Assembly: GCA_914767715.1 (NCBI GenBank)
Contig: OU612073.1
Span: forward strand, 9,674,001-9,738,000
Origin: Membranipora membranacea
Taxonomy: Eukaryota > Bryozoa > Gymnolaemata > Cheilostomatida > Membraniporidae
Direction: 5' to 3'
Length of the DNA stretch: 64,000 nucleotides
Of the stretch, positions 6,663 through 57,989 are shown piece by piece. Within the stretch, counting starts at the first letter, position 1. The number at the start of each line of letters is the position of its first letter. A program made the position numbers and the translations under genes. Under the pieces are notes generated by a model that saw only the letters and a list, made by a program, of their open reading frames with translations, had not been told where the DNA came from and searched no databases.

Positions 6663-9600
6663 ATGACAGAAGTTCTAAGCTGTCTTCTGATCATTATGCA
6701 GGCGGTTCTCGGATCAGGAAAACTACATGTTGAGTAAGTTATAATTAAACTTCACTCATCTTGTCTAAAGTTTTAGCAGGGTAGAGGTACTGGAAAGAGA
6801 TTGTACTGTTAGTTGTGGGTATTGCGGGTGAGTTGAAGATGCTATGAGGGTTGGAAGAATCCAGGGTAAATACTCGGAGACAAATACCAAATTCGAACAC
6901 GGACCTATATAGAGATGTGATCAACTGCACTGTCAAAGATCCTCCTAGTTTATAACAAACTGTGGGAATCTCGATATTCTTTGACACTGCTCAGTATCTT
7001 AGTATAAAAACAACTCCCAATCCTGGTATATTAACCTCTCAGTAGGGGTGAAAGGGTCTAAAGTGGAAAATATACATGTTCATATTCTTCCTTTATATTT
7101 AGTATTACTTGATCAACTTAGACACTAAAACTCACTTCACTCTTAGCATAAGTAAGGCATGTGAAGAGAGGTAACAGAGTGTAAATGGCTTAGGAGGCAC
7201 AACTAATTAATGAAGTTGTGACTTTATTTATTTACAGAGAAGGAATCGTTACAACAAGGTCCACAGCACCTTCCAGTGCAACAAGAATCGGGCTCATAGA
7301 GCCAGATCTCTCAATCAAAGGAAACTTAATGTACCATGTGTACAGTGGTCTAGGATATGAACAGCTATGGAGTACTGGTGGTGGGAACATAACATCCCCA
7401 GTTCTGACAAAACACAGAGAAGGGTTAAGCGTGAATACTAGTAATGGGTATTACACCAACCAAATCAGTTTCAACATGAGAGATTTCCGCCATGTTTCAG
7501 CACACTCGCTGAGACTGGATATTGAGAGTTACCATACGTTATCTAAAAAAGAGAAGCACTTGATATTCCCAAAAAGACAAGGTCAAGGTTAGGGTTGCAT
7601 GGAGGATTACTGGCTGACTCTACTAACAATCATCATCTATACGTCTTGACACGGAAAAGAACTTTTTTTTAGTGTACTTAAAAAACTCCCCAGACAATTT
7701 CACAAGATTGCACCAATTGACTGAGAGCAATGGAACTGTACATCATCGTTCCTTTCTCAGCCAACATAGAGAGTATCTGTACGCTTGTGTCCTGAGTGGG
7801 TTGAAGCAAAACTATGTAGTGTACCGGGTGTTGAAAATTTTGGAAAACAGTATTTCATCTGAATGGAATGTTTTTCGAAAAAGTGTGCATAAATATAATA
7901 ATCATTATGCGTTTGCAACCATTGATATTGATGCTTGCTTTTAGATAATGACGATACACCTAGCATCAATGGAAGCAACAATTTGAGCCTAGCTGTTTTA
8001 GCTACAGAGTACATCTCAACTGTCCAATGGCTACTGCCGTTGGGGTTATCAGTTGCTGGGTTATTGGTCGCTGCAACCCTCATTTTCATAGCTCTGAAAA
8101 TACGGTATGTCAATCCAACACCCTAATAACTAGTGAGCCTTACTAGTACACCATGGGATGACAGCCACCCCTCAATTCCTAGTTGAACACTTGTTAGTTA
8201 GTTAGGTATAGTAACGGTGTCGGTGAATTTTTATAATACCATTATTGTCGGATAGGTAATTTGAAACTATTGGTTATACAAAAAATATTTTTGCAATATC
8301 TTCATCTATTTATTATTTATTGCTAATTACAATATTTACTACAATTACTACGAACACTATGAAACAGAGCGCGAGAAAATTATATATGAATGAAATTATT
8401 CACACTTTGCGCATGACGCAACGAGCTATACCAGCAGTGTGTGAAATCAGCTATCAGCTGGAAATGGTGGTGTAATAGCAGTCTGATAACACAAACAACT
8501 GCTTTGGGCATGGCAATCAGAGGACAATGACAGCATTGATCATGAAACAATAGGATATTTGAATATGACAGAACAGGCTAAAAAATGCACAAAGTTGTCT
8601 TTTCAATGTCAGGAGGAAGACAATTCACTCTGTCTTTTTTACAGCTGATGTTGAAATATCCTGCTGATTCCCAAATTATTGGTCATCAAATAAGGTCAAC
8701 CGGTAACATCTCTGTTTCATTCATAAAAAATTATTATCTGATTACCGAAGTGGAGATTATGTTGTATTATTGGCCACAGATTTGGATAAACATGTCCAAA
8801 CTCGTCAAAAACCATCATAAAACAAAGATGAAATCATAACTCACACCTTCCAAGAAATATGAATATGGAATTCAAAGGGGATAAGTGACAAATTGTGATT
8901 TAAGAGGTGAGTCACCCCCATAGAGCAGATTTGCTTCCTGTGTTCAGTAGGTCAACTTTGAGAGGTGATACAGTTGTTGCTATGGTAGCTAAGTTGAAGA
9001 GCAACATCACGCCGCTGTAATCAGTTGGTTTACTAAAATAATTGGCAATCAATCAAGGCTCAGGCCTTCTATATCTTCAGAAAAATAACTCCATATCATA
9101 CCATGTTTTGTCATTGAGAAAATAACCAAACATCCCCTACTGATAGAAATGAGAGCATGTAGAGCATTAACGATTGTTTATCACTTACACATTGGTCACG
9201 CGTTGTCATGAGGAGTCAATGCATGCAACAGATACAATAAATCATGTCAGGTGCTCAAATTGTGTTAGATAAATAACTAAATGCACAGTTGAGCTAATGA
9301 GCAAATATTACTTTCCTTTACACGGTGGTGTCCACTCCCAAAGTCTATGTAGGAGAATATTTTTTCCATATATATACATTTTGAAGTCCCTAGAATTGTT
9401 AACTAGTGTTTTTTATGCTGTCAGATTAGAATTCAGCTGTGAGGACACCAATAAGAAACCTCATGTCTTGCACAAAATTATGCGTTACTTCATCGTGCAC
9501 AAAAAAGCACTCAGGAGCCAAATTGAAGGAATATGATGATAAATAATTCAACCTCACCTTCTTTATAAACCGCTATTCAAAAATCAAGAAGAAAACCAAT

Positions 9601-10778
9601 TCCATCTCTATGCTACAGCTGCCTGAAAGTTTCCTTTCCAGCAAAATACGTGATTTTCGTGCAGTCATGACGCGACGTCAAAAGACGTTACGTCCTCGAC
9701 TCTCGTAGAAATATACTCCTACCTAGATGGTCTTCCATATATGCCAAAACTTTTTTTTTAGGCGTTACTATACCTTAAAGCTTGTAGATTTGTTAATGTC
9801 CTGCAAATGTTCATGTTGGTCTGAAGAGTGATTGTGCTAGACAGTATCTTGGCTATGTCTCTTGTTGTGAATGTTTCTCATATAAATGTTTGTATTTCAG
9901 CCATTTAGATATAGTTTTTGTGATTTCAGCAAAAGGAGGTCAAAATTGCAGATTAACTCAACAGCCAGGAAATTTCCAGGTGTGCTGCAGAGCAGTAACG
10001 GTAAATCTCTACCAATTCTTCATCTTCATCTACAACAAAGATTAATATTGCCCTCGGTTAGGTCAAGCTAATAGATAGACATTAACTCCGCCATGAGCAA
10101 TTAAGGCATGGCCCGTTTCTGTGCTATATGTCCTTATTCTGAAGCTTTGTGCTAGATAGCACCGCTACCCAGTATATACTATGAAAGATCTATATGATGT
10201 AATTGGTCTGAGTTTTATACTTAGCGTTGTGACTTTAGATATAAGTGAGAGATGCTAGCAACAAGCCACTCCCCTGTTAAGTGTATTATGTATTATGTAT
10301 GTATTATGGAGTTTTTTATTTGGGGGATTGAAAATTTGTCTCAAAGTCATACTAGTATTTTATCCCGAGTCTTATTCTAGTGCTCAGACGACCGCACTGC
10401 GAGTTAGTGGCATTATTTCTTCCCATTGCAGCCGTCTGAGCGCATAGACTACCCAAACCTCTACTGTGAGAACGGAAGCAATCATTGATTAATGCCGTCC
10501 TAATTTGAGCGCTTTAATATTTGGGGTATACATTTTAGAAGAGGAAGACTGATCGAATAACAGCAGCAGATGTGTCACCAGAAGAAGAAATATACAACAT
10601 AATATGTGATGAGTATTATGTACTCAATGTTGACGTAGCGGAGGACTATGCTGATATTAATGTTATACAGCCTCACACTACAGACATACCATCAGCTCAT
10701 GTTCAATCTTCTACAGATGATAATCTTAATCCTGTGTCTGTGATCGATCCAGTTACAGAACAGTCTTATTCAGTTTAA
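6663..10778 (+). pseudogene. Receptor-like gene R1 with ITAM-like tail, broken copy
   Basis: Homologous to R3. Exon 1 (6663-6733, signal peptide MTEVLSCLLIIMQAVLG) and exon 2 (from 7238) splice in phase, and the transmembrane exon (7945-8104) and exon 4 (9930-10000) have the family lengths of 160 and 71 nt. Damage: exon 2 breaks frame near 7590, where about 30 codons are missing; it lacks one T in a T-run at 7663-7670; and it has lost roughly its last 100 codons together with the donor site. Exon 5 (10539-10778) is 240 nt instead of 254, which puts the tail out of frame. The ITAM-like spacing YYVL-x7-YADI survives in the tail frame, but the distal YLNP tyrosine has become asparagine. A LINE sits between promoter and start. 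Intron 3 (8105-9929) holds nothing I recognise. Confidence 0.8.
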
Positions 10779-10917
10779 GCTTGTTGGTTGGTTGTTGAGA
10801 AAATGTTTTATCAATCTAGGGAGTAAGTGAATATTGGTATAGGCTATAAGTAGTTCATTATTTTAATATTTATTTTCACTTGGACCCTGGTGGAATCAGA
10901 AAACTCATGAGTAAATA

Positions 10918-12690: not shown

Positions 12691-12890
12691 CAAGCAAAGG
12701 ACAGACTAACCATGTTTTGACAGCTAGATAATTAAAACTGACAAAACACGCAAATCAAAAGAGAGTAATGACGAAATTGAGGCTAAAACCAATAACAAGG
12801 TAAACACCTTTATGCCTGTAAATGCAAACGTGGCACAATAACAGGAGAGCAAACCAGCACTATAAAAGCCTGATGGACACTTGTAAAAAT

Positions 12891-13320: not shown

Positions 13321-13390
13321 ACAGAGAGGAAAATTGTCTAAAAACTTTTAGACACATTCAACCAACAGAGCTTTTGGCAAGATACACAGA

Positions 13391-13745
13391 GATACAAATA
13401 CCGCGATTCACAACGAGGAACCCAGTCTAATATAGCTTAGATATAGAGAGATACAAATACCGCGATTCACAGCGAGGAACCCAGTCTAACATAGCTTAGA
13501 TATATAGAGATACAAATACCGCGATTCACAGCGAGGAACCCAGTCTAACATAGCTTAGATATACAGAGATACTATACCGCGATTCACAGCGAGGAACCCA
13601 GTCTAACATAGCTTAGATATAAGAGATACATATACCGCGATTCACAGCGAGGAACCCAGTCTAACATAGCTTAGATATAGAGAGATACAAATACCGCGAC
13701 TCACAGCGAGGAACCCAGTCTAACATAGTTTAAATACACAGAGAT
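13391..13745. repeat. Tandem satellite, 59-bp unit, six copies
   Basis: Units start GATACAAATACCGCGATTCA at 13391, 13450, 13509, 13568, 13625 and 13684. The core GCGAGGAACCCAGTCTAACA and TAGCTTAGATATA recur in all. Spacing is 59 bp except one 57-bp unit. The array follows the 113-bp satellite by about 70 bp but shares no obvious sequence with it. Confidence 0.93.
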
Positions 13746-14830
13746 ATCACACTGAATATCACACTGAATTTGAGGTCATCTGCACCAAGGGTAAGATCTT
13801 ATTATAAAGATTTTGAATGTTTATGTATTTTTATGACTAAATGATAAATGCCAAGATATTATTGTAAAATTATTGATTGATTTATTGCCTGACGAATAGA
13901 ACCATATTTATATTTTGTTATTATTGTTTAAAATAAATCCTTGAGCAATTCCACCGAGCATTGCACCAAACTCAAATCCAAACCAGTGCTCAGTAGTTGA
14001 GGCTAGCGCACATTGTACGATAGTAGCTCTACTTACCGCTGAGGTATTGTTGATCAACAGTTCAGTTGTGTTTTTGAAGTCTCTCTTTAATAACCGAATT
14101 ATCAGCAATTATAAGTCCAGATCTGCTACCATTGCATTTGCACTACTTGAACCATACATATCGCGGATTCTAAAACAGAAAATTGGAGGATATTTTATTA
14201 TTTGGGATTTCAGACAAGGAGTGAACAATTCCAAAATACAGTCCGATTAATCAAACACAAAATTCATTCACAATAAATATCATATTACATTACATAAAAC
14301 ACGAAGTAAACCTTATTAAAAATTCCATGCTGATAATATTATCTCATTCCAACCGAATCCATTACACAATCATTACATCTCCTACCTCTTCCTAAGCTTG
14401 TTTGTTATTTCACTTCACTTTTTGCGCATAAGATAAACAATGTTTTAACACCTCCATTTATATATAGAGGATTTAAAAGCACTACCAAGTTCAATTTTTT
14501 TGATAAACATTTACTTTTATATCATACAGACAATCCAAGATACAAAGTTTCTGTTACATACAATTCTTTACCGTTACATTTGAGATCTAAAGAGAAGTTC
14601 AGTTCATTCAAAAATTTACTTTTCAACCATTTATTATCGACTTGACCAACATCATTGATGATATTATTTCCATTCTGTTACTCTTTTTTTTGTTTTAAAA
14701 ATTTTTTTCTGGCACTGAGTGCAAAACATTTCGAATGAGATGACTTTGGTTGCCAATAAAAGTATATATATAAAACTTATACAATACACAATATTTCTAC
14801 TGACGAATCTGACTATAGGTGGAAGAGCCG
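13746..14830. other. AT-rich DNA, nothing recognised
   Basis: Low-complexity AT-rich sequence; the two small open frames near 13908-14250 overlap on opposite strands and have no support. Confidence 0.4.
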
Positions 14831-15336: not shown

Positions 15337-16423
15337 ATGAAAATGTTAGAAGTTAAACGGTGTCTTTTGATGTTAACAAAGGCAGCCTTGGTCATATCAA
15401 AAAAACTAGAATCAATGTAAGTTAATTTATTTGGTATATTGATCCACCTGTGGCCATCATCCGATCGAAATTGATCGAGTTATCAACAAAAAAAGCTGGT
15501 ATATGAGCTGCAAGTCAATGATAACACCAATTCTACTACACCAATTCGAATGACGTCAGGTTGCCGACAATTAAATGCCTCAGTGCCTCAGTGCTTATGC
15601 TGTCCTGTCTGGGTTTATTATTAAGTCTATATGGGTTATCCTAAATGTGTAGCACTAGACAGCCTCGGTTATCCTAACTTGTGCTATCAGCTGTATGTCA
15701 TTTATTGTTTGTGTTGCAGCAAAAAGAGGTCAAGAGGGCAACTTTAAGTTCAATCAACAACCAGGGAGCTCCCAAGTCTATCAGAGAGTAGTTACGGTGA
15801 GGATCCTTCATATTTTATTATTTTCCATCATTTTCCTTTATCACATTCACTATAAGTGACTACTCTAACAGTGGCTGATGACAATGTGGTAAGGATCAAC
15901 TGCACTACAATCTGCTCCAATCTTACCAGTTGCCACATCATGACGTGAAACTATCTACTTTAGAGTATTGAACTAAAATCATATGGGCTAATTTTTTATT
16001 TTTTGTGATGCAATAATTTTGAGAATCTAATACAGTGAGCGTGCTTTCAAATTAAAATTACTGGCTACATCACGGCTGTGTCGGTACAATCTGCCTAACT
16101 TTGCTTTGTGATTTGTCAAAACATAATCCGAAAGTTTTCATCAATTAGATGAGAGAACTGTGATAGTCTGTGTTTTGTAGAAGGAAGGATTGAAGAAGAA
16201 AACTACACTCAAATAACGGCAGCGGGCATGTCCCCAGAGGAAGTAATATGCGATAGGTGATGGTTATTATGAACTCAGTGTTGACACGGTGGAGGACTAT
16301 GCTGATATTAATGTTATACAGCCTCACTCAATAGACACACCATCCCCTCATGTACAATCTTCTGCAGATGATTACTTCAACCCTGTGTCTATGATTGACC
16401 CAATTGCAGAATCAACTGATTGA
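15337..16423 (+). pseudogene. Receptor-family relic lacking the extracellular and transmembrane exons
   Basis: Three exon relics remain in order. An exon-1-like piece starts ATGAAAATGTTAGAAGTT (15337) and ends at a GTAAGT near 15418. An exon-4-like piece at 15720-15796 begins CAAAAAGAGGTCAAGAGGGC after an AG and is 77 nt, frame-shifted against the 71-nt norm. An exon-5-like piece at 16181-16423 keeps the ENYTQI tyrosine but has a 5-nt deletion at the IYNII tyrosine that shifts the frame; beyond it YYEL-x7-YADI is still readable, and the distal motif is YFNP. Exons 2 and 3 are absent from the short gap. The DNA from about 14850 is homologous to the flanks of the relics at 22.9 kb (minus) and 48.6 kb (plus). 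Confidence 0.7.
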
Positions 16424-23609: not shown

Positions 23610-26600
23610 TTAAACTGGATCAGAGGGTTCTGTAACTTGGTCATTCACAGACACAGGATTGAGATAATCCTCTGGAGAAGGTTGTACATGAGCTGATGGT
23701 ATGTCTGTTATTTGACCCTGTATTGCATTAATATCAGCATATTCCTCCACTCTGTCAACATTGAGTTCATAATACTCATCACCTATTATGTCGTATATTT
23801 CTTCCTCTGATGGTATGCCAGCCGCTGCTACTTGAGCATAGTTTTCCTCTTCATTATCATTGCCTACAAAACGTATCCCAAATTCATCAGCTGCTCAAAT
23901 TTGGACAGCATTGATCAATTATTGCCTCCTTTCACACATTACTATTAGAGGTTGGGGTAAAATGCGATGGCTTGACCCAATCAATATGCAAATTTTTTAC
24001 ACTTTATAGGGGATTGGCAAGTAGCGTGTATCTCCCATTAAAATCTATAAAGTATAAATCTCAGACAAATTACATCACATAGATTTTTTAGGTTTAGGGT
24101 ATATACTGGGTGGCATTGTGTCATGATGTATAGCACAAACACAAAAATTCTCATTGATCATCTAATTTAAAAATCTGTAAGCAAATATAGCTACCCCAAA
24201 GCTTCAGGATAAGGACATAGAGCACAGAAATGGGTCATGCCTTGATGGCTTATGGCGGGATTGATATCTATCCATACGTGTAGATAAAGATTAAGAATCG
24301 ATGGAGATTTACCTTTACTCTGCGGTACACCTGGGAGTTCCCTGGCTGTTGATTGTGTCTGCCCTCTTGAACTCCTTTTGCTGAAATTATAGACACATTA
24401 CTAGTATTTACATGTTTTTGCTGAAATACAAACACTTTTATTCACACGACATCGCTAGATAGTGTATCCTCGAGGCTGTCATATATCATCACACTCAGAC
24501 CAACATGGACACTTCCAGGACATTACCAAATTTACAAATCATATGTTGGACAAAAACTTTTTCAACCAGGACGCCTGTCATACCATGGTGTACTACTAAG
24601 GTCAACAGGTAACCAGCTTATGTGATTGAATGCATACCGTATTTTCAAAGCTGTGAAATTGAGGATTGCAGCAACCAACACCCCTGCAACTGATAACCCC
24701 AATGGCAATAGCCATTGAACTGTGGAAATATACTCTGTAGCAACCTCAGCTGTGGTTGCATTGTTGCTTCCGCTGATGCTTCCGTTGATGCTTGGTGTAC
24801 CGTCTGTATCTAAAAACAGATTGAAGGCAGAACCTGATTTAAATGACAGCAATTTTGTTGCAGTCATCAATGTCAGTAGTAGTTCAATTCAATGCTTTCT
24901 CTCTTCTAGCGATATGATGTGATGAAATCAATTATTGTCAAATTCCATTTTATATGGTTTGAACAGTAACACACATTTGGAATTCATGTAGATATATTTA
25001 TGTACATTGCTCTGATTCCATTACAAAAATTGGTCTAACAAGATGAAAACTCAAGTTCAAACCTGTCGATATGAACTGCCTCTGATAGCAACAGGGAGAT
25101 AGGATGCCTTGGGAAGTTAACTGCAGTAGTTTTTTTATAATTATCTATGTTAGTTCTTAATACCATTAAGCATTAAAGATTGTGGGCAATTATTATACCT
25201 CCGCCATTACGTCATCCTGAAGGGGGATTCCAAAATAAAAAGCTTTCTAACAAATAAAGCAATTACTTCTATTTCAGGTCATTATTCCTCACAGGATGGT
25301 CACAGAGATTAGAAACTTAGACATAGATGCAAAAAGACATGTAGAATCCATATATTAGGTTAGACATACTCCCTGTGTCCTCCCAACACCCGCAATCTTT
25401 AAATTGAGGCATTTGATTGTATATCTAATAAACCGAACAACATCTAGGTTTCTCACACAGTATCACAGGGTATCGAGACTATAAACAAACGTGAGTTTTA
25501 TTGATTGTATATCTCTCAGCAAACCTAGTAGGCGTTTGATACTCTAGAAAAACGTGCTTAGAGAAACATACACAAAAAACCAAGCTAATCCATCCCATAT
25601 GGCGCCCTATCTAGTTTGGGCATTGCCAGTAGGCCTATATTCTGGAAACTAAATATTTCATCATGATATTGTCAAGCAAGCTCGAGACAAACAAAACAGC
25701 CAATAGCCATAACAGAAAAATAAACAATGTGCACATACTGTTCTATACAGCAGTACGAAGGGTGACACCATACAAGAAACGAGTAAAAACCAGCAACATA
25801 GTGAAAAATTCAGATACCAGAGAATATGGAAAGGCCACCAAATGTTTGATCTGAAGCACAGACTATTCTTCCCATCCCCCACCATCGACACAGCGAACAA
25901 TATCCTCATGGCAGTAGATACCATAGTAAATACCTTTCATATTGTGATTTATCTGGATACCCAACTAACAATATTGACTGCAAGCTGTTGATGGCATATG
26001 GCCAAGAAGCTATTGGTGCCTGTATTTGAAAAGATTCTAGCTTAAATTAAGCTTCAAAACAAAATCCCTCATGCCTTCTCTGGTGTTTACCTGATCATAA
26101 GCAAATAGTAGCTAGAAACTGAACTATTTTAAATCCGGTATAATATGCCTTCATAATAACAATACTACTACTATAAGGGCTTCTTTGAGGGAAGGGTTCG
26201 GAATTTGAAGGTGACATTATTTTTGCTCAAATCAGCTGCACTGTTAACCTTTTCTGAATGAAATAATTTTCTTAAAAGATAGTAATTTGTTTTTGAATCA
26301 ACCCAATAAACATCAATAATTTTCAATTGACATTGTTTTCTCGGTTAATCCTTGTTTGAAATGTGATAGTTTCAGGCCCTCTTGTGTATTTCTTTGGATT
26401 AAAATATCTTATAATTGTTTATTGGGTGTATCCCTGGCTCAAACAAATTTTGTTCATATCGCTGGATAAGGTGGGTTGATTCAAGTACCAGTAGATGAAT
26501 TTCGCAACCTCATTTAAACCACCTACTCAAAATCTTTGACCCAATCCAGCAAAAATTAAAATTTAACCAGATTGACACAATTGATTGTTCTGCTTGGTGC

Positions 26601-28441
26601 TTGGTGCTTGGATTTTGAAATAATACCTGTATACAGGAAGAACTTGTATGCTGGTAAAATTTCTGATATTTGGAGATATTTAACTTTTGATTGTAGAGAT
26701 GTCCTAGATTCTTCTTCAGTAAATAATTCTCTCAATCAAGTTTGTATGTTTAGCTAAAAACAAGGACGGGATTTGACAATTCGTGCAAAGTGGGATAATT
26801 TCCAATTCTTAATAAATACGACATTGTATGAAAGTGAAAAGATAACTCTATAGCAACTTGAAGCCAAAATACTTTAAATGAACTGAGCTATCCAGAAACT
26901 TTAAAAGTGTTATATTGATGTTAACTTACCCTTCCATACCAGCTGGACAATCAGATGTTGAGTGGCTATGTAGACATTATCATTGTAGACGGCGAGTGCT
27001 GATTGGTCCCACAGTGAGCATGTGTCAGTTGTCCCCTCGCTGTATAGAATACCTCCGTTGCAAATACTGCTCAGCATTTTTTCCCGTTGGGAATAAAGTT
27101 GTACTCCACTCGACACCAAAAAGGATAATCCATCAAGCACTATGAAGAACCTCAAGCCAGACTTCATAGGAGGTAGCTCAATGTCAAGTTCGGTCACTTC
27201 TGGACCGTCAGATAGGACATGCTCTTTCGTAATTTTCAACATTCGGTACACCCTATATTTTTGTATCAGCCCATTCGGGATACAAGTATACAGATACTCA
27301 TTGTGTTGGTGGAGAAACGAAGGGTTCAAATATGATTGAGTGACTGACAAATTCTCAGAAAAATTGTGATATCTTGTGAAATTATCTGGAGACTCTTTTA
27401 AGTTCACAAAAAACTAAATTCTATGGTGTAACAAGTATAGATGATGATTGTTAGTAGAGTCAACTAAAAATCCCCTAAGCGACCTAGCATCTGCCCAAGG
27501 GTCAGGTTGGGACACACCACCAAGTATAAACGTTTCATTTGTCACCCTGTTAAGATGTACAAGGCTTCTTGTTGCAGTCAACGGTAATGGTGGTTCAAAG
27601 GTGATCATCTGAATAGTCACAATATCCAATATCAGAGCATTTGTGGAAACTTGGCGGTAGTCTCTGAGGTGAGAGCTGGTTTGGATGGAGTGATAAGGAT
27701 ATGAAGTATTATAATCTGGAGTGTTTTCTTTTGAGTATTTTGTCAGAACTGGGGTTGACTTGTTCTCACCACCAGTACTTCTTAGCTCTCCCGATCTTGG
27801 CCCACTGATAACATGGTACATTAAGTTTCCTTTGATTGAGAGGTCAGGCTCTATGTGCCCAATACTTGTTTCATTGGAAGGTGCTGTGAACCATGTGGTT
27901 ACATTTCCATCCCTGTAACTGTAATCAAATTCACAAAATTATCGGTTTTATGAGTGGTGTTTTTCTAAACAAAGCACTCTGTGACCTCACTTCACTTGCC
28001 TAATTAGTAAGAGGTAGAAGTGAGGACCTGGGATTAAATCAAGCTCCCTCTCGGGGGATTTACCCTGGCTTCTACCAGGCTCCATAGTGACTTCCACCCA
28101 CCCAGGCTCCCCAAAACTAACAACCTCTAACAAAAAAATATATCACAAATTCAGACAGATCCCTAACCACAACTCAACTTTTCAGAATACCCCCACCCTA
28201 CTGAGATCATAGATGTGCTCTATCAGTAATAATCAAAAGTTGTATTGTGGTCTTTGAGTCTTTGTGGTGTATTGTGGTCTTTGGTGCCAATCACCTGCTC
28301 TCTGGAGAGTATGGTCTCATTCCAGTACCACTATACTGCTACTACATAAGACAAGACAAGACTAACTTACTCAAAATCGAGATTTCCTGATCCGAGAACT
28401 GCCTGCATAATCATCAGAAGACAGCTTAGAACTTCCGTCAT
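23610..28441 (-). pseudogene. Receptor-like gene R2 with ITAM-like tail; complete except for one in-frame TAG
   Basis: All five exons of the family are present with conserved phases: 28441-28371 (signal peptide MTEVLSCLLMIMQAVLG), 27918-26930 (extracellular part), 24809-24638 (transmembrane), 24380-24313 (basic juxtamembrane, KRSSRGQTQ) and 23863-23610 (tail). The joined length is 1554 nt, divisible by three. The only defect is TAG at 27416-27414, codon 192, where R3 reads a sense codon; the frame continues open on both sides. The tail keeps YAQV, YDII, YYEL-x7-YADI and YLNP. The transmembrane helix carries an unusual Asn (ILNFTAL). Intron 2 (24810-26929) holds nothing I recognise. It may be a recent pseudogene, a polymorphic null allele, or a sequencing error in a working gene. 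Confidence 0.85.
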
Positions 28442-29930: not shown

Positions 29931-30148
29931 TCAATCGGACGATTCTGTAACTGGATCAATCCTGGACACAGGGTTGAGATAATCCTCTGGAGAAGGTTGT
30001 ACACCAGATGATGGTGTGTCTGTTGTGTGAGGCTGTATAACATGAATATCAGCATATTCCTCCACATTGTCAACATTGAGTTCATAATAATCATCACCTA
30101 TTATGTTGTATATTTCTTCCTCTAGGGATATGTCTTTAATTTTGCTGC
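29931..30148 (-). CDS. Orphan cytoplasmic-tail exon of the receptor family
   Basis: A lone exon-5 homologue preceded by TTTTGTAG and open to its TGA. It is 218 nt, 36 nt (12 codons) shorter than the 254-nt norm, so phase is kept; the deletion removes the first tyrosine motif. It retains IYNII, YYEL-x7-YADI and YLNPV almost identical to R3. No signal-peptide, extracellular or transmembrane exon lies upstream on this strand before P450 relic C, so it is either a relic or a spare tail awaiting a partner exon. Expression is unknown. Confidence 0.6.
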
Positions 30149-32080: not shown

Positions 32081-33483
32081 TGTGATAACATAAATCAATT
32101 ATACAAGCATAGCATGTATGTCAGCAGGATCTAGCCTGTACTGGCTGATCCATGCCTAGCTAGTCATAGTCAACACATGGTTGGTAGACTCAAGTACAAT
32201 TTATTTTCAGTAGCTTGGGAAAGTGAACGGCTGGTGGTCGATCATAATCAAACTATTAATGTTGTTAAAATTCCAATTTTCTTTAGTTCGTTGGGGTCAT
32301 TCATTCATCATTACATTTACCTGTGAAACAAAAATCATCTTTGCCTTCCTTAGTCTTTGAGTGGAGCAGATAGTGATCGATGACACCTTGAGGATTATCA
32401 TCATCCAAAGATATTCTTCTTCTATCTACCATCGATTCCAGTGCAGGAATAATAATTCCATGATTAACATAGTCACTCAGCTTGTGCCAGGATTTGAAAA
32501 GTATACCATTGAATGGAATATTTGCAGTTAACCCTAACATTGCCACCAATCTGGTTGATTCGTTTATTGGCCATATTAGTTTTTGGAATTGGGCGTCACT
32601 GTACTCGTTTCGTGTATTGAAGATGAGTTGTGAAATTGTATTGGCAGTTGCTTGGGGCAGACTCACAGTCATATGAATAGGTTGTCCATGTTTAGGCGTA
32701 ATGAAGAATTTTATGTACTGGTCCATCTCATCAGCGGCTTGTCCCATACCCTCATCTCTCAGAGAGTGTAGAGACACTGTACGCAATGTCTTCCAATTAG
32801 GGTAGGGTGCAAAGAATAAACCTGAAAACGGAACAAAATAAATCCTCAACTTCCGGAGCAACAGATTTGATTGCAACCACCTTACTTTTAGTCCTTACCT
32901 TACATCATAGTCTTGCTTGAATTGATAGCTGATGATTCGAAAGGCACATGCTTTTGCTTGAAGCTTTTGTAACTGATAAAATGATTTATGACTGGTAAGA
33001 TTGAGGGATTTTAATAGCGATCATGGAATGCCCCCTAATAATCCCAAAAGAAAAATCTTTATTTACTTTAATAGTAGGGAGATTGAATGAGGCTTTCTCT
33101 AAATAAGCCCTGCTGGGGAAGGTTGTTACTATTTACTTAATCTGTGGCGCCAAAGAAAGTAAACTGTAAAATTCAATCCGATTCTCCTAGCAATCTGTCA
33201 AATCCAAAACACTTTATCTGTTGGTCGGTGATTTCCTGAACATCCAGCTATATAAATTGTTGTATTCTGTTTTTATTGCTACTTGGAAATTTCATAATAT
33301 CAATGGTTTCGTCATTTTTGGTCTTACATGCAAGGACATACGAACTTTACGACCTAGCTAAGGACATAAGATTGTCATGTCACAAATGCTTCATGCTGTC
33401 ATTTTTTATTGATTAAAATGAATGTTATTTCTGCAAAAAATAACACATTACATGGTTGCATGGAAATCATAATTAGGGCAGGG

Positions 33484-43568: not shown

Positions 43569-43959
43569 CTATACAAAATAATGTTTTCACTTTATAGTAA
43601 TCCTATGAACCTTTAGCCTATAGTTTTCACCCAGTATTAGGCTTTCCATCCACATCCATGTATGCCCTTCTCCGAACAGATCATTTCAAGTAATGAAATA
43701 AAAAGCAGTTCTTCATAGCATAGTTTTCCATCATAAATATTAGGGTGTAAGGGGGATTTTTTTGCACTTATCTAATACTTGTTCACACCTTTACTCTAAA
43801 CCAATCAATCATGTTGTGAAAGGTTGAAGGTGGTCTTACCCAGCACATTCATAGCATATGACTCAGAAGTATAAAACCTGCAAATCAATCTGGTACAAGA
43901 AATATCTACTATCTGTTAAAAACTCATCATCTGCTAGCTGAGTGTTTCCTCTTTTTTAA

Positions 43960-44234
43960 TTATAATGAAAACTTCGACTTTCATATTCATTTTTCAGGAT
44001 TAATTGGCAAAAAAGTGTGATAGCTACATTTAAAACTTGGCTGAACTTGGTTATAATATCGGGTAATCAAGGTAGTGCAAACAATTACCAATTGACATCT
44101 CACTTTTTGCCATTATGACAAATGACGCGTGTTCTGATTTGTCAATGAGACAGTTGTTCATAAATGCTCATTTTTTATCAATGCAGTATATGAATAGCTT
44201 ACACTGGACTTTGTATGGTTTTCCTTACGTTAAA
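43960..44234 (+). promoter_or_regulatory. Conserved upstream flank of receptor R3
   Basis: Shares ordered blocks with the flanks of R1 and R2 (TTTTTTAATTATAATGAAAA, AATTACCAATTGACATCTCA, TTCTGATTTGTCAATGAGAC) and runs to the start codon. It is the uninterrupted version of the site hit by the LINE upstream of R1. Confidence 0.5.
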
Positions 44235-47200
44235 ATGACGGAAGTTCTAGAGTGTCTTCTGGTGATTATGATGGCGGTTATCGGATCAGGAAAACTAGAT
44301 TTTGAGTAAGTTATTACTAAGTTGGTATTGTCTATCGTGATAGCAGTATATTGGCATTGGAATGAGACCGTGTCTCATGCATGACAAGTTGGTAGACCCA
44401 AAAATCAGGAGGTCTCCGCGGACAAACTTCCAACCCAGAATACCACTCTGCGTCCTGCAGTGCTGGTGCAATTCAGCCCGCGTTTTTCGTATTTCTAAGC
44501 CAAAACTTGAGCTTACATAATATTAATTTCGTCGTTGTATCTGATTTTACATACAAGCAGTAATGGTAATAAGCAATTACATAGGTGTATGCACTGTTGA
44601 GGTAGGAAAAAATAGTTTCCATTGCAAAAAGCACCTTACAAATTGTTCTTGGTAAAGGAAGCTGAAAAAAGGGAGGAAAAAGGGAGATAGGGAGGGGATG
44701 GAAAAAGACCCTAAAAACTGGGAGCCTCCCTACCAAAAAGGGAGACTTGTCAGGTATGCCGTGTCTCCAAGGAATAGGTGATTGACAACCAGCCATCGAG
44801 CATATCTCATCTCATATGTCATCAGAAGGAGTACAAGTTTCAAACAGTATGATGGTCAGTATAGATGTGGTTAGGTTGGCTGTTGAGTTTTATTTGCGAG
44901 GTTGTGACATTACTGGTATGTCAGGTGTGTCTAAGTTACTATGGGAGTAGGGACAACCCAGGGCTAATCCCGTGAATCGAGTCCCTTAATTTGAGTGAAT
45001 CCAAACCAGCGACTTTTCTCATATTAGCTATAGCAGTGATATGTTGCGCCTAATAAGCTCCTATTAGTATATTAGCCACGTGTGGACTCTGGATATTTAG
45101 CTTTCTTTGATACTGCTCGGTATCTTCACAAACAACTCATATTGTTAAAAGATAAAAAGCAAATCATAAGTTGTGGACTGGTCATAAAACACAAAGTGCT
45201 TGGCATAGCACTCTAAAGAAAGGCCAGTAGCCACTCCAAATCCTGATGTGTTTACCTTTCTTGGGGGGTGAATGGTGTAAGGGACGAGTAGTTCCAAGTC
45301 TTCCTGCATATCTACTGTAACCCGATGAACTTGAACACTAAGCCTCACTTCTCTCTCTCTCTCTCTTAGTAATAAGGTAGGTGAAGTGAGGTCACAGAGT
45401 GTATTAGTTTAAGGACCACAACTAATGTTAATAATGATGACATGACTTTTATTTATAATTTATAGTTACAGAGATGGAAATCTATCCACATGGTTCACAG
45501 CACCTTTCAATAAAACAAGAATTGGACACATAGAGCCAGATCTCTCAATCAAAGGAAATCTAATGTACCTTGTTTTGAGTGGCCAGAGTCCTGGAGAGCT
45601 AAGAAGTACTGGTGGTGGGAAGACAAACCCAACTACTGTTTTGACACCAAGCTCAGTATACAACATGACAGAAAGGTTTAACTCAACTCTATTCCCTAGC
45701 CCTCTAGTTTTGGATTTCCGGCAAGTATCTGCAAATGCGCTGATATTGCAACTATATGATATGTTCACAGTTGGGCAAAAAGGTCATCTTGCATATGTCA
45801 GCAGAGAGAATAATGAAATGCTCATACTTGGTGTAAGCCAACTTGGGCCTGTGCCCATGGGGGGATTGCTTGTTGACTCTTCAAGCAGGCACCATTTATA
45901 CTTGATACACAACGGTGCTTTATTGTTCGTTGACCTCTACAACTCCCCAGAGAGTTTCCTGCGATTACACAAATTTTCAGATAAAACATCAACCTATTTT
46001 GACCATCTTCCTCCCATTCTCAGCCAACACGGAGAGTATGTGTACGCATGTGTCCTGGGTGAGCTGACACAAAAATATGAATTGTACAGAATTTCAAAAT
46101 TTACCGATGACCGTATTCCATCTGATGGTGTAGAAGTGACCAGACTCGACATTGAAATCCCACATTTGAGGACTGGCTTGAGTTCATTTGTAATGCTCGA
46201 TGAATCGTCGTTTTTGGTGGGGAGTATATTTCAACTCCTACTTCAGCAAGGAGAAACATTTAAGGGTGTTTGTAAAACAGGCATTCCATTCAGCGAAGGG
46301 ACATTAGACACATGCTCACTGCGGCAGTATGCAGCACTCGCCATCTACAATGACAATGTCTACATAGCTACAGAACATCGAATCGCCCGGCTTGTATGGA
46401 TAAGTAAGTACTAACACCCACCTGTAATAGAGTTAGGCTTTTATTGAACTGAAATAACATTCATCTGCAGCAGTTCATGCAAATGTTCTACTATTGAAAT
46501 GAAACATTGATCAAGATCAAGTTCTACTGATAAGACGCATGAATGCGAGCCATTTGTCTGCAGCAAACGTGTAGAAAGGGAAGCAAAGGCAGATAACTCG
46601 AACTGGATCAAATCTAAATAAAAAAGGAACTATTTGTAAAAGGTTAATATTTTTCTAGTCAATAATTATTTGCCACCATGCATAGTTGTGATCAATCGAT
46701 CTGATTACAGTTATTTTTCTTTTTAGATAACGACGGTACACCAAGCGTCAACGGAAGTGATAATCCACGTATAGCTGAGGTTGTTACTGAGTACATTTCC
46801 ACTGTTCAATGGCTACTTCCATTGGGGTTATCAGTTGCTGGGGTATTGGTGGCTTCTATCCTCATTTTCACTGCTATGAAAATACGGTATGCCGATCCAA
46901 GGAGTTAAAGTTGTCTCTAACTCCTTGATCAATCACATAACCTGTAGACCTGTCAGCCTTAGATGTTGTAAACTTGGTGATGTCTAAGTATATCGTTGGA
47001 GTGTCCTAGATGTATCTATGTTGTTTTAAAGTTTTATGGTTCTGTAGTGCCCTAGTGATGTCATGTGAATTAGTGCCATAAAAATGTTTGTATTTCAGCA
47101 AGAAAAGGATAACAAGGCAGACTCAGTCAACAGCCAGGGAACTCCCAGGTGTACCGCAGAGTAGTAATGGTGAGTTTCAAACAATTCTTCAACTTTATCT

Positions 47201-47970
47201 ACAACAAAGATTTATTTTGCCCTGAAAATAGTTAATAGAAAGACAACAACTCCTCCATGATCCATAAAGACAATCCATTTCTGTGCTCCAAAAAAATCTA
47301 AGTCCATCTCCTGGAGGTTTGTGTCAGCTAAAAAATCATTGGCAGATCTAAAAATTATATAAGCTGACACAGATTTGGTCTTTACAACATGACAAATATA
47401 CTACCCAGTATATATTACCCGTAAACAATAAATACTTATACTAATGAGTTGTATGATAATAACATTAACCAAAAAAATCATATTATGTAATTAGTCTGAG
47501 ATTTACACATGGCACTGTCACATAAGATATTTATAGGTAAGCAACAAACTGATTTGCTGTAAAATGTAATTATGGACTTTTTTATTGTTTGGGTCATGGA
47601 GTTGTCTCAGGCGATACAAGTATTTTTTCCTGACCCTCTCATGTGAGAAAGGAAGCAATCGTTGATCAATGCAGTGCTAATTTGAACAGTTGAAAACTTT
47701 GGTGTACACTTTGTAGGTGGTGGAATTGAAGACGAAAACTACTCACAAATAACCGCAGCAGAATTATCACCAGAGGAAGAAATATACAACATAATAGGTG
47801 ATGATTATTATGAACTCAATGTTGACAATGTGGAGGAATATGCTGATATTAATATTATACAGCCTCACACAACAGAAACACCATCATCTGGTGTACAACC
47901 TTCTCCAGAGGATTATCTCAACCCTGTGTCCAGGATTGACCTAGAAACAGAAACGTCTGATCCAGTTTAA
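44235..47970 (+). CDS. Receptor-like membrane protein R3 with ITAM-like tail (intact, 497 residues)
   Basis: Type I membrane protein, probably a cell-surface receptor. Exons 44235-44305, 45466-46403, 46727-46886, 47099-47169 and 47717-47970 join to 1494 nt without a stop. A signal peptide (MTEVLECLLVIMMAVIG) leads into an extracellular part (about 20-360) with N-glycosylation sites (NLS, NKT, NMT, NST) and few cysteines; repeated short strands such as HHLYLIH, EYVYACV and NVYIATE hint at a beta-rich fold, but I recognise no domain. The transmembrane helix is about 363-387, followed by RKKRITR. Tail tyrosines: YSQI (422), YNII (437), YYEL (444) and YADI (455) spaced x7 as in an ITAM, and YLNP (480, YxN type). 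The start was chosen because R1 and R2 share it. Binding partner and function unknown. Confidence 0.88.
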
Positions 47971-49026: not shown

Positions 49027-52000
49027 TTACTCCTGTGCCCTCGGTTGGAAAATGATCTCATAGGGTTTGGGACATCGGATCACGTCTGATACAGTATCTG
49101 ATGGGTCAGCTTTTGATCCCTCCGGCAAAATGACTGAGTATCTTTGCATGAAGGACACAAAGAACATGAAGAACTCTACTTTGGCTAAACTCTCTCCCAA
49201 ACAGTTTCTTCTTCCTTGAAAATGTATACAATATTAATGAAACTTTCATATATCATGCAAGTGCAAGCTCAATAAATAGCATATTACTGCAGAATAAAAT
49301 TGGTTTGATATGCATTTCAATTATTGGTTTGATGGATGGATTCAAGTGAGCATGATATATATGAAGGCTAACGTACCTATACCAAAGGGTATAGTCCTCT
49401 GTTTTTTCAGTGCATTGTCACCTTCTAGGTATCTCTGCGGTTTGAACTCCAGTGGATCTTCAAACACAGTCTCATCATGGAGTACAGATGCCATATTCAG
49501 TAAGATATCTGTGCCTCCTTGGATAACCTGAAATAATGAGCACAAGCTGTTTAATTCATTTAGAGCTGACAGTGAAACCAAAAGAAAGTACATTGTTTTT
49601 ATTTACAAGGTAAGGCAACTACAAAATATTGCTGGTATCTTTCACTCAATTATTCTGAGGGTTTGTGTAATACAGGGCCAGCTTGTCATTCAAACTGAAG
49701 ATCAGAAACATACCTCTCCTTCTAAAACTAATTCTTCTTCAACCATATGAGGAAGAGCATTTGGGACCAAGTTTCCTATCCTAAGACTTTCCAGTAATAC
49801 AGCTTCGGTGTACGGTAGAGACAGTCTATCTTTGTACACAACCTGCTTGTCACCTACAAAATAAGAAACAACCTGTTGCAAACAAGCTGATGAGAAAACA
49901 CCTATATAAAATATGAAACCTACACATCCGAAGATATGAGGATGTTGTAGAGCATCAAGGGTTTGAAACTTGCAGGAAGAAATAGAAATATTCAGATATC
50001 CCCCTCACAAGCTTAACTTCGAGTCAAACCTGTAGCGATCAAACCAGGGTGGGTTGATTAATACACTAGGACAGGTAAACTGTGGGCTCTGAGCAGATGT
50101 GCTCTTTAGAAATACCAGTAGAATATCATCCTGTCAACCGGCTGTATGAGACCAATTTCATACAAATTACAAAATGTGCCAAAACCATAGTCTTTGCTGG
50201 CCAAAAATTTTTCCCTCTTTTCAATGACCTTTTTACAAGGACATTAAACATAGAGTCATGTCTTTTGGATCTATTTTTTCCGGGCGTGATTTTTATCAAC
50301 CCCTATGATTTATTGTAGAAATCAGCTACTTAGATATATATTGTTTGCATATAGGTAAAACTAACCGATCTCTTTCTCAATCTCCATGTAGACTCTCTCT
50401 TGTACATCCGGGTATTTACACATAAAGAGAAGACAAAATCTCAGCGCTGTGGAAGTTGTTTCGGTTCCACCCACGTAGACGTGGAAGGAAAACCACCCAG
50501 AGTTTGTGTCTTAAAAAAAACATGTGACAATGTAAATCAATATAAAAGCATAGCATGTATGTCAGTAGGATCTAGCCTGTACTGGATGTACCCTGCCAGG
50601 CTAGTCATAGTCAACACATGGTTGGTAGACTCAAGAGTCAAGACCAATTTATTTTCGGTAGCTTGGGAAACTGAACGGCTGGTGGTCGATCATAATCAAA
50701 CTATTAGTGTTGTCAAATTCCAATTTTCTTGACTTCGTTTGGGTCATTCATTCATATTACATTTACATTCACCTTATCCTAACTACATTTACCTGTGAAA
50801 CAAAAATCTTCTTTGCCTTCCTTAGTCTTTGAGTGGAGCAGATAGTGATCGATGACGCCTTGAGGATTATCATCATCCAAAGATATTCTTCTTCTATCTA
50901 CCATCGATTCCAGTGCAGGAATAATAATTCCATCATTAACATAGTCACTCAGCTTGTGCCAGGATTTGAAAAGTATACCATTGAATGGAATATTTGCAGT
51001 TAACCCTAACTTTGTCACCAATTTGGTTGATTCGTTTATTGCCCATATTAATTTTTTGAATTGGGCGTCGCTATACTCGTTTCGCTTATTGAAGATAAGT
51101 TGTGAAATTATATTGGCAGTCGCTTGTGGCAGGCTAACAGTCATGTCAATAGGTTGTCCATGATTAGGCGCAATGAAGAATTTTATGTACTGGTCTATCT
51201 CATCAGAAATCTGTGGCTCCATAGCGGCTTGTCCCATACCATCATCTCTCAGAGAGTGCAGAGACACTGTACGCAATGTCTTCCAATTAGGGTAGGGTGC
51301 AAAGAATAAGCCTGAAAACAGAATTAGATTAGAATTTGATTTTTAGTAACACTTCGAAATTTCATCACATCATTGGTTTTGTAATTTTTTTACTTATATC
51401 AAAAGAACATACAAACTTCAACGACCTAGCTATGGACATAACTTAAATTACCCTGTCAGGTCACAAATGTTTTCACAAAGTGGATTTTGATTGATTGATA
51501 TGAATGTTATTTTCTGCTCAAAATAACAAATAGTTGCGTGAATTTTGAAAAAAAAAGAAGAAGAAAACTGTGCATCGCCTAGGATACTAACTTGAGAACA
51601 TACTGGTCCGACTTCCTTGATTTTTTTTTCTAATTGTAGCTATTCCTTGTTTAGCAATTTCCAAACCCTCAATTGTCTTTAATTTAATTGCTTATGTATG
51701 TGATGGCAATTTATAAAATTTAAGCCACTGGTGCCCATGCAAAAGAATAGGAGCTGTCAATAACTGGAAGCATCTGGCTCAGACGCCTCACAACCAGATA
51801 TTCGTATCAAACCAGGATTGTAGCAAGGGGCAAGAGCTGATTATAGCTTAATTGCAGTATGTGATTTAATATAAGCGTCATTCAAACTGGCTGTATGTCT
51901 ATTCACACACTGTCTTTACGGTATCAGAAAAGCCACACGATGTTTGGAGTCGCTGGCCAGCTTACTAGATTCATTCAGAGCCTGAATAGACACATATGCA

Positions 52001-54145: not shown

Positions 54146-56303
54146 TCACTCCTGTGCCCTCGGTTGAAAAATGATCTCATATGGTTTAGGACATCTGATC
54201 ACGTCTGATACAGTATCTGATGGGTTTGCTTTTGATCCCTCCAGCAGAGTGACTGAGTATCTTTGCATGAAGGGTACAAAGAACATGAAGAACTCTACTT
54301 TGGCTAAACTCTCTCCTAAGCAGTTTCTTCTTCTTGAAAATGTGTACAATATTAATGAAACCTCCATAAATCATGCAAGTACCAGCTCAAAAAATAGCAT
54401 ATTACTGCAGAATAAAATTGGTTTGATATGCATTTCAATTATTGGTTTGATGGATGGATTCAAGTGAACATGATGTAGATAAAAGCTAATGTATCTATAC
54501 CAAAGGGTATTGTCCTCTGTTTTTTCAGTGCAATGCCACCTTCTAGGTATCTCTGTGGTTTGAACTCTAGTGGATCTTCAAACACAGTCTCATCGTGCAG
54601 TACAGATGCCATGTTCCATAAGATATATGTGCCTCGTGGGATTACCTGACATAACATGCAAGTTGTTGAATTCATTTAGCTGACGGAGAAACCAAAAGAT
54701 AGTACATCGTTTTTATTTACAAGGAAAGGCAACTATAAAATATTGCTGGTATCTTTCACTCAATTATTCTGAGGGTTTGTGTAATACAGGGCTAGCTTGT
54801 CATTCAAACCGATGATCAGAATCGTACCTCTCCTTCCACGGTTAAATCTTTTTCAACCATATGAGGAAGGGCATTTTAGACCAAGTTTCCTATCCTAAGA
54901 CTTTCCAGTAATACAGCTTCGGTGTATGGTAGGGACAGTCTATCTTTGTACACGACCTGCTTGTCACCTACAAAATAAGAAACAACCTGCTAGAAACCAT
55001 TTGAAGGAAACAGCTGTAAAATGGCTAAGTGTTGGTATGAAATGTACACATCTCGATGGATGGAGTGAAATAAATTTCACCTTTTTCATCTATCCTTTTA
55101 CCTGGAAATTTAACACAGAGCCATCCGTTTTAAACTTTGTAGGCCTTCAGCTACATCAACTCTGATGGTTTAAATTAAATTATATAAAAAAAAAGCTGAA
55201 CATAGTATGCTTGGATATATCTTGTACGTGTATAGCTACAACTAACCGATCTGTTTCTCAATCTCCTTGTAGACTCTCTCTTGTACATCCGGGTATTTAC
55301 ACATAAAGAGAAGACAAAATCTCAGTGCTGTGGAAGTTGTTTCAGCTCCAGCCACAAAAAGGTCCTGTGAAAACCATGCCGAGTTTGTGTCTGCAACAAT
55401 AAAATATGTGGAAACATGAATCAATATAATACAAGCATGTCAGTAGGGTCTACCTAGACTAAGTTTGGTCCATTCGACTGCGTTCCAGTTGCTCCATTCC
55501 ACTGGTCACGCCGCGGCGTGACCAGTGGATGGGAGTAACTTGAACGCAGGCATTTCGATTAAACTTGATCTAGGTCTAGCCTATGCAGGGTATGAACGGA
55601 CAAACAGTCTTAGCCAAAACATTGGTTGGTAGACTCAAGAACAATTTAGTACCTAAGAAAACTAAATAGCTTGAGACAGATCATTACTGAACAATTAGAT
55701 TTGTTTAAATCTCCATATTTACTTGAATTTATAGGGGCAACCCAGTCAATCGCTCACCTTATCCTAATTACATTTACCTGTGAAGCAAAAATCATCTTTG
55801 CCTTCCTTAGTCTTCGAGTGGCGCAGATAGTGATCCATGACTCCTTGAGGATTATCATCATCCAAAGATATTCTTCTTCTATCTACCATCGCTTTCATTT
55901 CAATGTAGGGAGGGCAATTTCCTGATTAAGATGGTGAAACAGCTTGTGCCTGGATTTGAAAAGTATACCATTGAATGGAATGTTTGCCACGTCAACCCTA
56001 ACTTTGCAAATATTTTGGTTGTTCCACTTATTGTCGATATTAGCTTATGGATTTGGGCATCACTGTACTCGTTCAGCTTGTTGAAAATAAGTTGAGAAAT
56101 TATATTGGCAGTTGCTTGTGGCAGACTAACAGTCATATCAATAGGTTGTCCATGATTAGGCGCAATGAAGAATTTTATGTACTGGTCTATCTCATCAGAA
56201 ATCTGAGGCTCCAGTGCGGCTTGTCCCATACCGTCATCCCTCAGAGAGTGCAGAGACACTGTACGCAATGTCTTCCAATTAGGGTAAGGTGCGAAGAATA
56301 AAC
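54146..56303 (-). pseudogene. Cytochrome P450 copy F, broken
   Basis: Exons 3-7 remain on the minus strand: 56303-55778, 55390-55247, 54967-54828, 54645-54495 and 54332-54146. Defects are independent: exon 3 is 526 nt because of a 2-nt and a 5-nt insertion that break the frame; exon 5 has TAA where E reads the codon after NLV; the exon 6 donor is ATAG|AT instead of GT; exon 7 lacks one G at its start. Exon 4 is intact (AGAETT in the I-helix). Exons 1 and 2 are missing, replaced upstream by a 15-bp minisatellite. Very close to copy E, including intron sequence, so a young duplicate that decayed rapidly. Confidence 0.9.
55454..55573. mobile_element. Fold-back element, copy 2, in an intron of F
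   Basis: A 120-bp imperfect palindrome centred on CACGCCGCGGCGTG, with arms CTAGACTAAGTTTGGTCCAT and its counterpart ATTAAACTTGATCTAG. The flanks GGTCTACC/GGTCTAGG look like a worn target duplication. Confidence 0.8.
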
Positions 56304-56454
56304 CTAAAAAACATCTTAACTTTCAGAACAGCAGATTCACTTGTGGCCACATCACTTATAGTGACATCATGGTCATGCTCAATAACCAATTTAAAGGGCA
56401 CATAATTTGCCTGAAACTTTTATAGCTGATATAATTAAGACTGGTAGGATGGTG

Positions 56455-56660
56455 ATCACCCAAAAGGCCACCGCCAAGAAGCCACTGGCCATGAAGCCAC
56501 TGGCCAAAAAGCCACTGGCCATAAAGCCACTGGTCAAAAAGCCACTGGCCATAAAGCCACTGGTCAAAAGGCCACTGGTCATAAGGCCACTGGCCAAAAG
56601 GCGACTACCCATCAGGCCACTGGCCAAAAAGCCACTGGTCATAAGGCCACTGTCCAATCC
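56455..56660. repeat. 15-bp minisatellite, about 13 units
   Basis: Units AAGCCACTGGCCATA / AAGCCACTGGTCAAA. Because the unit is a multiple of three, both strands are open across the array (KPLAIKPLV-like on plus, SGFMASGFL-like on minus); these frames are a by-product, not genes. The array at 30566-30680 has the same unit inverted. Confidence 0.92.
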
Positions 56661-56754
56661 AAGATACTACAGCATAACTGTACTTTATTTTGTAATGTCA
56701 GTATTGTACCGGTTTGCCTACATCCTGGTATGCCCACTGATAAGCCATTCGTTA

Positions 56755-57377: not shown

Positions 57378-57499
57378 ACTGGGTCAATGGTAGACACGGG
57401 ATTAAGATAATCATCTGGGAAGATTGTACATGAGTTGATAATGTGTCTGTGGTGTGAGGCTGTATTACATTAATATCAGCATACTCTTCAGGGTCAACA
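57378..57499 (-). pseudogene. Fragment of receptor tail exon
   Basis: Minus-strand frame EEYADINVIQPHTTDT, then a shift before the YLNP region. The upstream tyrosines are lost, as is everything 5' of GTTGAC. Sixth exon-5 homologue in the window. Confidence 0.75.
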
Positions 57500-57989
57500 T
57501 TTATGACCGTGAATCCGTTATCTTCTCTAGCAAAAAGAGCCCTTCCAATGCCAAGCAGGGCATTTATTTAGAGTCAAGAGCGACCGAATGGTTCCACATT
57601 GGCAGGAATGAAAACCTGATGAGACCGAATTGTCAATAATAGACGGTAGATTCTATACCATTGACAAAAAGAAGTCAAATTCCTTAATTGTTTCTAACTT
57701 GGTGTTATAGCTGAGTGAAACTGAATATATTACAGCTGGCATTATCTTCAGCTCATATTAGTCCCTTTTTGTCCTTTATTTAACATTTTGAATGGCAGTC
57801 TATTTCATTCCAGTAGCGGAATGTTTTCCTAATAGTACCGAAAATATAAAAGGAAAAGGAAAATGAAAAAAAGAAAATTCCCCTCCCACCTCCCTTTCAC
57901 TAACCTATGTCGTACATTGTTGAAATTCTAACAATTTCCTGGTGATGGTGTTCATTTTTTCGTCAATTCTGCACCAGATTAACAACATC

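Follow-up and report, generated by a model that had tools for sequence, protein, structure and literature searches.

A probable orphan receptor gene with an ITAM-like cytoplasmic tail in the bryozoan Membranipora membranacea

A stretch of 64,000 nucleotides from Membranipora membranacea (GenBank assembly GCA_914767715.1, contig OU612073.1, positions 9,674,001 to 9,738,000 of the forward strand; hereafter the window) carries a five-exon gene, R3, which is probably protein-coding and, judged from its sequence, specifies a type I single-pass orphan receptor with a phosphotyrosine-type cytoplasmic tail. The structure of the gene, the layout of its product and the tail motif can be read directly from the DNA. 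The explanation preferred here, tentatively and with slightly more doubt than confidence, is that R3 is a lineage-restricted type I receptor whose tail acts as a phosphotyrosine docking site. In that case, an ITAM-like tyrosine pair would be read by a kinase of the Shark type and a YLNP site by a Grb2-type SH2 domain, while the ectodomain might be an NHL-like propeller. The genome as searched comprises 339 Mb in 18 contigs, the window being part of contig C9.

Gene structure and protein layout

The five exons of R3 (Table 1) are bordered by GT-AG and, once joined, stay in frame through 497 codons plus a stop codon. The same borders recur in paralogues within the window, all of them in R2 and part of them in R1. 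At the acceptor of exon 2, a second AG lies six bases downstream (TATAG/TTACAG/AGATGG), which is also in frame and would result in a protein of 495 amino acids. As R2 contains both of these AGs and R1 only the second one, the true length of R3 may be 495 residues.

Residues 5-16 of the predicted protein are hydrophobic and signal-like (mean KD 2.78 over 12 residues), and residues 366-384 constitute the transmembrane segment, a single strongly hydrophobic helix (mean over 19 residues in Table 1) followed by basic residues. Outside the membrane, five N-glycosylation sequons are present, exon 2 accounting for four of them and exon 3 for the fifth, and the whole protein contains four cysteines, one of them in exon 1. 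The first-pass annotation of this locus had described five exons, a signal peptide and one transmembrane helix, all of which is borne out by the in-frame join, the signal-like start and the single helix. Its description of R3 as an intact copy holds as well, R3 being the sole complete open copy among those read on C9.

Table 1 R3 and its paralogues in the window (positions counted from the first nucleotide of the window)
Feature	Position	Strand	Description
R3 5' flank	43791..44181	+	90% identity to R2 flank; TATAAA at 43870, where R2 has TATGGA
R3 exon 1	44235..44305	+	carries the start codon and a hydrophobic, signal-like stretch MTEVLECLLVIMMAVIGSGKLDF; similar exons: R1 6663-6728, R2 28441-28373
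R3 exon 2	45466..46403	+	extracellular domain in a single open frame of ~312 aa; lead, weak and indirect, towards an NHL-type beta-propeller
R3 exon 3	46727..46886	+	stalk and transmembrane helix; KD 2.46; dN/dS 0.23-0.27 in three pairs
R3 exon 4	47099..47169	+	juxtamembrane start of the tail, basic
R3 exon 5	47717..47970	+	tail with YSQI, YNII, YYEL-x7-YADI and YLNP; includes the stop codon
R3 AATAAA	48118..48123	+	polyadenylation-like signal, with a counterpart at the corresponding place in R2
R1 paralogue, broken	6663..10789	+	exon 2 interrupted and lacking its 3' part; out-of-frame exon 5
R1b, exon 4-5 remnant	15748..16420	+	frameshifted; YYEL-x7-YADI kept
R2 paralogue, all five exons	23613..28441	-	one in-frame TAG in exon 2 (27414-27416)
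R2b, tail-exon remnant	29934..30137	-	85% identity to R3 tail
R4, tail-exon scrap	57383..57513	-	first ITAM tyrosine lost

The cytoplasmic tail

The tail of R3 comprises 110 residues, among them 22 acidic residues and six tyrosines, which are located at positions 422 (YSQI), 437 (YNII), 444 and 445 (YYEL), 455 (YADI) and 480 (YLNP). Hence, the two YxxI motifs and the YLNP motif that had been noted before and after the ITAM-like pair are all found. Within the whole protein, the pattern Y..[LI].{6,8}Y..[LI] is matched solely by YYEL-x7-YADI (residues 444-458), with 11 residues from tyrosine to tyrosine. The first tyrosine of this pair is preceded by Asp at -1 and -2 and by Gly at -3; with acidic residues at -1 and -2 only, R3 thus departs from the strict ITAM consensus, which places an acid at -3. 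The earlier equation of DDYYEL-x7-YADI with the ITAM consensus therefore stands for the spacing and fails for the acid at -3. Some accepted ITAMs likewise lack an acid at this position. Reading the tail as an ITIM was discarded, as no [SIVL]xYxx[ILV] occurs in it.

When the R3 tail was shuffled 100,000 times, the basic ITAM pattern arose in 1.5% of the shuffles, and in 0.7% with an acid at -1 to -3, while at least four YxxL/I motifs were obtained in 0.35%. An acid before both tyrosines, a form of the pattern defined after the R3 tail had been seen, was present in 0.2%. Among 395 other stop-to-stop open reading frames (ORFs) of at least 60 amino acids from 15 loci, eight contain the basic pattern and one carries an acid before both tyrosines. 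From these rates the motif is improbable by chance, yet too common to stand alone.

Candidate signalling partners

Exons of possible partners are observed elsewhere in the genome, in which 44 SH2 exon matches were obtained. On the minus strand of contig C11 (17.330-17.339 Mb), a predicted gene has the exon order SH2, ankyrin, SH2, kinase, a domain order by which it would be classed as a Shark-type tandem-SH2 kinase gene. Eleven ORFs were picked at this locus and ten of them scanned, seven giving the expected Pfam matches: SH2 (7.4e-9), ankyrin (two ORFs, one below the cut-off), SH2 (6.5e-7) and kinase (three ORFs). Among the best 60 of 822 PDB matches of its activation-loop exon, the first row is labelled EGFR, and rows 2-25 are SYK (21) and ZAP-70 (3). 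The N-terminal SH2 exon taken alone finds SHP2 chains, not SYK, as best match. Additionally, C2 carries Src-like SH3, SH2 and kinase ORFs, and on C9, at ~12.13 Mb, a pair of SH2 exons precedes phosphatase exons in an SHP-like arrangement. With Shark-type and Src-like exons in the genome, a candidate writer and a candidate reader of an ITAM are present, and so is a competitor of the SHP type. An SH2 pair on C4 (29.67 Mb) was rejected as a tandem-SH2 kinase, one SH2 domain being confirmed and the motif scan finding no kinase there.

In Shark, or HTK16, the two SH2 domains are separated by ankyrin repeats, and the protein has been described as invertebrate-only (PMC9486129, PMC10253181). In the fly, the ITAM-bearing receptor Draper recruits Shark following phosphorylation by Src42A (PMC5138034), and Syk-type kinases have been reported from sponges (PMC9601881, PMC2820527). 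In the reading preferred here, phosphorylation of the R3 tail at its acidic tyrosine sites would be the work of a Src-type kinase, the paired YYEL and YADI could then engage both SH2 domains of a Shark-type kinase in ITAM fashion, and YLNP would engage a Grb2-type SH2 domain. This ITAM-to-Shark route appears to be the single likeliest mechanism for the R3 tail, at below even odds.

Family searches and the extracellular region

No known family was recognised for R3 in Pfam or in the PDB. A search of 5.8 billion proteins with the full-length sequence (the 7,996 best candidates being scored) and with exon 2 returned only near-identical copies of R1 and R2. The viral contigs searched yielded no relative, and literature searches on sponge ITAM receptors, covering mostly papers accessible without subscription, listed none that deals with the family. 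Weak Pfam and PDB matches to VHL, ICAP-1, Lipoprotein_X, dopamine D3 receptor constructs and cadherin-23 were insignificant or below the cut-off and were set aside, and a phage tblastn match (E 0.4) was regarded as noise. The family thus remains as unrecognised as the first-pass annotation had called it, without a match in any library searched. The extracellular part had been called novel-looking, which fits R3 itself, as it matches nothing, and is qualified by a lead, weak and indirect, towards NHL-type beta-propellers.

This lead runs through an ORF on contig C6, a distant relative whose residues 95-178 match NHLRC2 chains, i.e. an NHL propeller, at 2.9e-6. Against a profile of R3, R2 and a relative on C10, the C6 ORF comes out ahead of all 999 of its own shuffles (E 0.019). 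It aligns with R3 by BLAST over C6 residues 16-97 (6e-5 for the single comparison) and with the family by hhalign over C6 residues 23-154 (E 4.4e-5, probability 69%). A stretch of the form H-[IM]-E-x-D is common to R3, R2, C10, C2 and C6, with Leu in place of His in R1. Taking either alignment, the family-like part of the C6 ORF overlaps only partially with its NHL-like part. Pfam did not find NHL in the C6 or C10 sequences, and no NHL profile or structure match was obtained for R3 itself. In the PDB, a five-row family profile including C6 retrieved no chain and the C10 sequence alone no propeller. Comparison of the family profile with itself gave no internal propeller repeats.

Structure prediction for exon 2 by AlphaFold yielded two models with pLDDT values of 35 and 31, both unusable. 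In Foldseek, the best 50 of 556 matches of the first model, all at E 0.03 or worse, are what we take to be mostly propellers, and the matches listed for the second model are not mostly propellers. The check suggested along with the first-pass annotation, a proteome search and a fold prediction, thus agreed with it on the side of the search, where no known family appeared, and gave poor models of exon 2 on the side of the fold. An NHL-type beta-propeller fold for exon 2 of R3 is, hence, a lead rather than a result.

Paralogues and relatives in the genome

In the window, R3 is accompanied by the five paralogues and remnants listed in Table 1. P0001, a protein of another assembly (source 'lgn'), is 99% identical to R2 and does not have its exon 2 stop codon, so some individuals may carry an intact R2. 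Two others, P0004 and P0005, are 97-98% identical to R1 and share its interrupted form. The 5' flank of R1 that matches R2 stops at 5434 and restarts at 6590, with R2 being gapless there, which points to an insertion. A reverse transcriptase ORF (PF00078, 1.9e-14) lies in this stretch (5469-6602, minus strand).

Several other features were observed in the window. Cytochrome P450 copies occur interspersed among those of the receptor (147-728, 19194-19808, 32301-32894, 50779-51342 and 55900-56322); of these five similar ORFs, three were scanned and all three matched PF00067, as did 3 of 53 other ORFs. An array with a 15-base unit of about GCCACTGGCCATAAA occupies 56443-56672, where two open frames on the plus strand give repetitive basic peptides, and at 12886-13763 there are tandem repeats spaced at 113 and 59 bases, amid strong AT skew (0.25).

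Genome-wide, the tail exon has ten matches: R3, R2, R2b, R1, R1b and R4, plus copies on C5, C3, C2 and farther along C9 (C9:9949). The arrangement YxxL-x7-YxxI is kept in six of the ten and absent from those on C3, C2, at C9:9949 and in R4, all four being partial or broken. Stop codons interrupt exons 2, 3 and 4 of the C5 copy. For the C3 copy, only the transmembrane and tail exons were recognised within 20 kb, and a weak match to exon 4 contains a stop codon; the C2 copy is distant and decayed. Exon 2 has nine matches in the genome, including an intact one on C10 and the weak one on C6 (E 0.14). The C10 exon aligns over its full length (34%, 2.6e-27), its frame is open over 350 codons, and the C10 transmembrane exon appears to share its splice end point with the family. 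No tail exon was recognised in the ~7 kb past this transmembrane exon. An ORF with the ITAM pattern downstream of it was considered as a tail and taken as a chance occurrence, since no likeness to the tail of the family could be detected. Upstream of the intact C10 extracellular exon, at a distance of ~3 kb, lies another relative of it, which is broken (C10:1732563-1733345, plus strand). Altogether, these sequences look like a genuine, small and lineage-restricted orphan receptor family, most copies of which are broken so far as they were read.

Selection and divergence

Between R3 and R2, dN/dS is 0.66 for exon 2 and 0.91 for the tail; over 10 pairs, several of them with broken copies, the tail gives 0.61-1.50. 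The value for exon 3 is 0.23-0.27 in each of three pairs. There is no clear sign of purifying selection on the tail as a whole between copies, and with a ratio near 1 the resemblance among the tails may be due to youth or gene conversion. The eight columns of YYEL and YADI show no difference between R3 and R2 and one over five tails. Across six comparisons that overlap one another, motif columns were somewhat less variable than other tail columns (uncorrected p 0.02-0.06, one-sided Fisher test).

Ten blocks were compared between R2 and R3. Identity is lowest, at 69%, in the ectodomain exon and amounts to 74-90% in the other nine, non-coding ones included, with 90% in the proximal 5' flank. This pattern suggests a mosaic produced by conversion of the ends, by quicker change of the ectodomain, or by both. 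As dN/dS of exon 2 is below 1, diversifying selection is not demonstrated.

Competing explanations

Instead of a docking site for a kinase, the tail could be a set of sorting signals, its YxxL/I motifs being bound unphosphorylated by the AP-2 clathrin adaptor, which would render R3 an endocytic or scavenger receptor with incidental ITAM spacing. All four YxxL/I motifs of R3 fit the YxxPhi sorting motif, their number, rarely reached in shuffled tails, is accounted for equally well as by signalling, and the ITAM pattern also occurs in the eight other ORFs mentioned above. YYEL and YADI, however, are among the least variable columns of the tail, and tyrosine kinases and SH2 domains prefer acidic context and YLNP-type sites, which suits the strongly acidic surroundings of the tyrosines (EEEIY, DDYY, EEY) as well as YLNP; a sorting role is therefore considered unlikely, though not strikingly so. 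Slightly less likely still is a general phosphotyrosine scaffold mainly serving an SHP-type tandem-SH2 phosphatase, Grb2 or PI3K-type adaptors, and not Shark. Six tail tyrosines, the many SH2 exon matches and the SHP-like exons on C9 would all fit such a scaffold, but SHP usually needs a hydrophobic residue at -2, and the tail is devoid of the corresponding ITIM-type motif.

The family might also be decaying, with R3 as the last open copy and the tails alike through recent duplication or conversion, in which case no present function is to be assumed. So far as the sequence around the ten genomic tails was read, that of R3 alone belongs to a gene that is complete and open, R2 having one stop codon and the rest being partial or broken, and the near-neutral dN/dS of the tail points the same way. 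Against this, R3 is open over all its codons with intact borders, exon 3 is held at a dN/dS of ~0.25, the stop codon of R2 is missing from P0001 and the C10 frame is open over its whole 350 codons, and decay is judged the least likely of these three alternatives. A fast-changing family of single-domain beta-propeller receptors, each with its own ITAM, which signal via Shark and act in recognition of microbes, in self/non-self discrimination or in cell clearance, is a long shot; if true, a propeller, rather than an Ig, lectin or EGF domain, would be fused directly to an immunoreceptor tail.

Coming back to the preferred reading, a tail that recruits Shark would make R3 a one-protein ITAM receptor with an unrecognised ectodomain and, thereby, a candidate receptor for the Shark kinase, and the role of tandem-SH2 kinases before lymphocytes would become directly testable. 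If the tail does not recruit Shark, R3 still represents an orphan receptor family outside every library used.

Comparison with known systems

The likeness to NHLRC2 is confined to part of the distant C6 relative, R3 itself being without a match. In the ITAM chains of mammals (CD3 zeta, FcR gamma, DAP12), the spacing is similar to YxxL-x7-YxxI and the chain is usually separate from the ligand-binding one. R3, in contrast, combines an extracellular domain and the tail in one protein, and the acid at -3 is missing. The extracellular repeats of Draper are of the EGF type; for R3, no Pfam match to EMI or EGF-type repeats was obtained even at E 10. Draper is moreover a Nimrod-family protein (PMC5138034). 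Like R3, Draper, CED-1 and MEGF10 have YxxL/I-type sites, which are reported to be phosphorylated by a Src kinase and read by Shark or Syk (PMC5138034, PMC5712531), and a Shark-type gene is predicted in the genome of R3. While the oyster protein CgIgIT2 is an immunoglobulin superfamily member with five Ig domains outside and R3 has no Ig match in Pfam, both would be alike in their overall plan, CgIgIT2 being an invertebrate transmembrane receptor with an ITAM of its own (PMC11999971).
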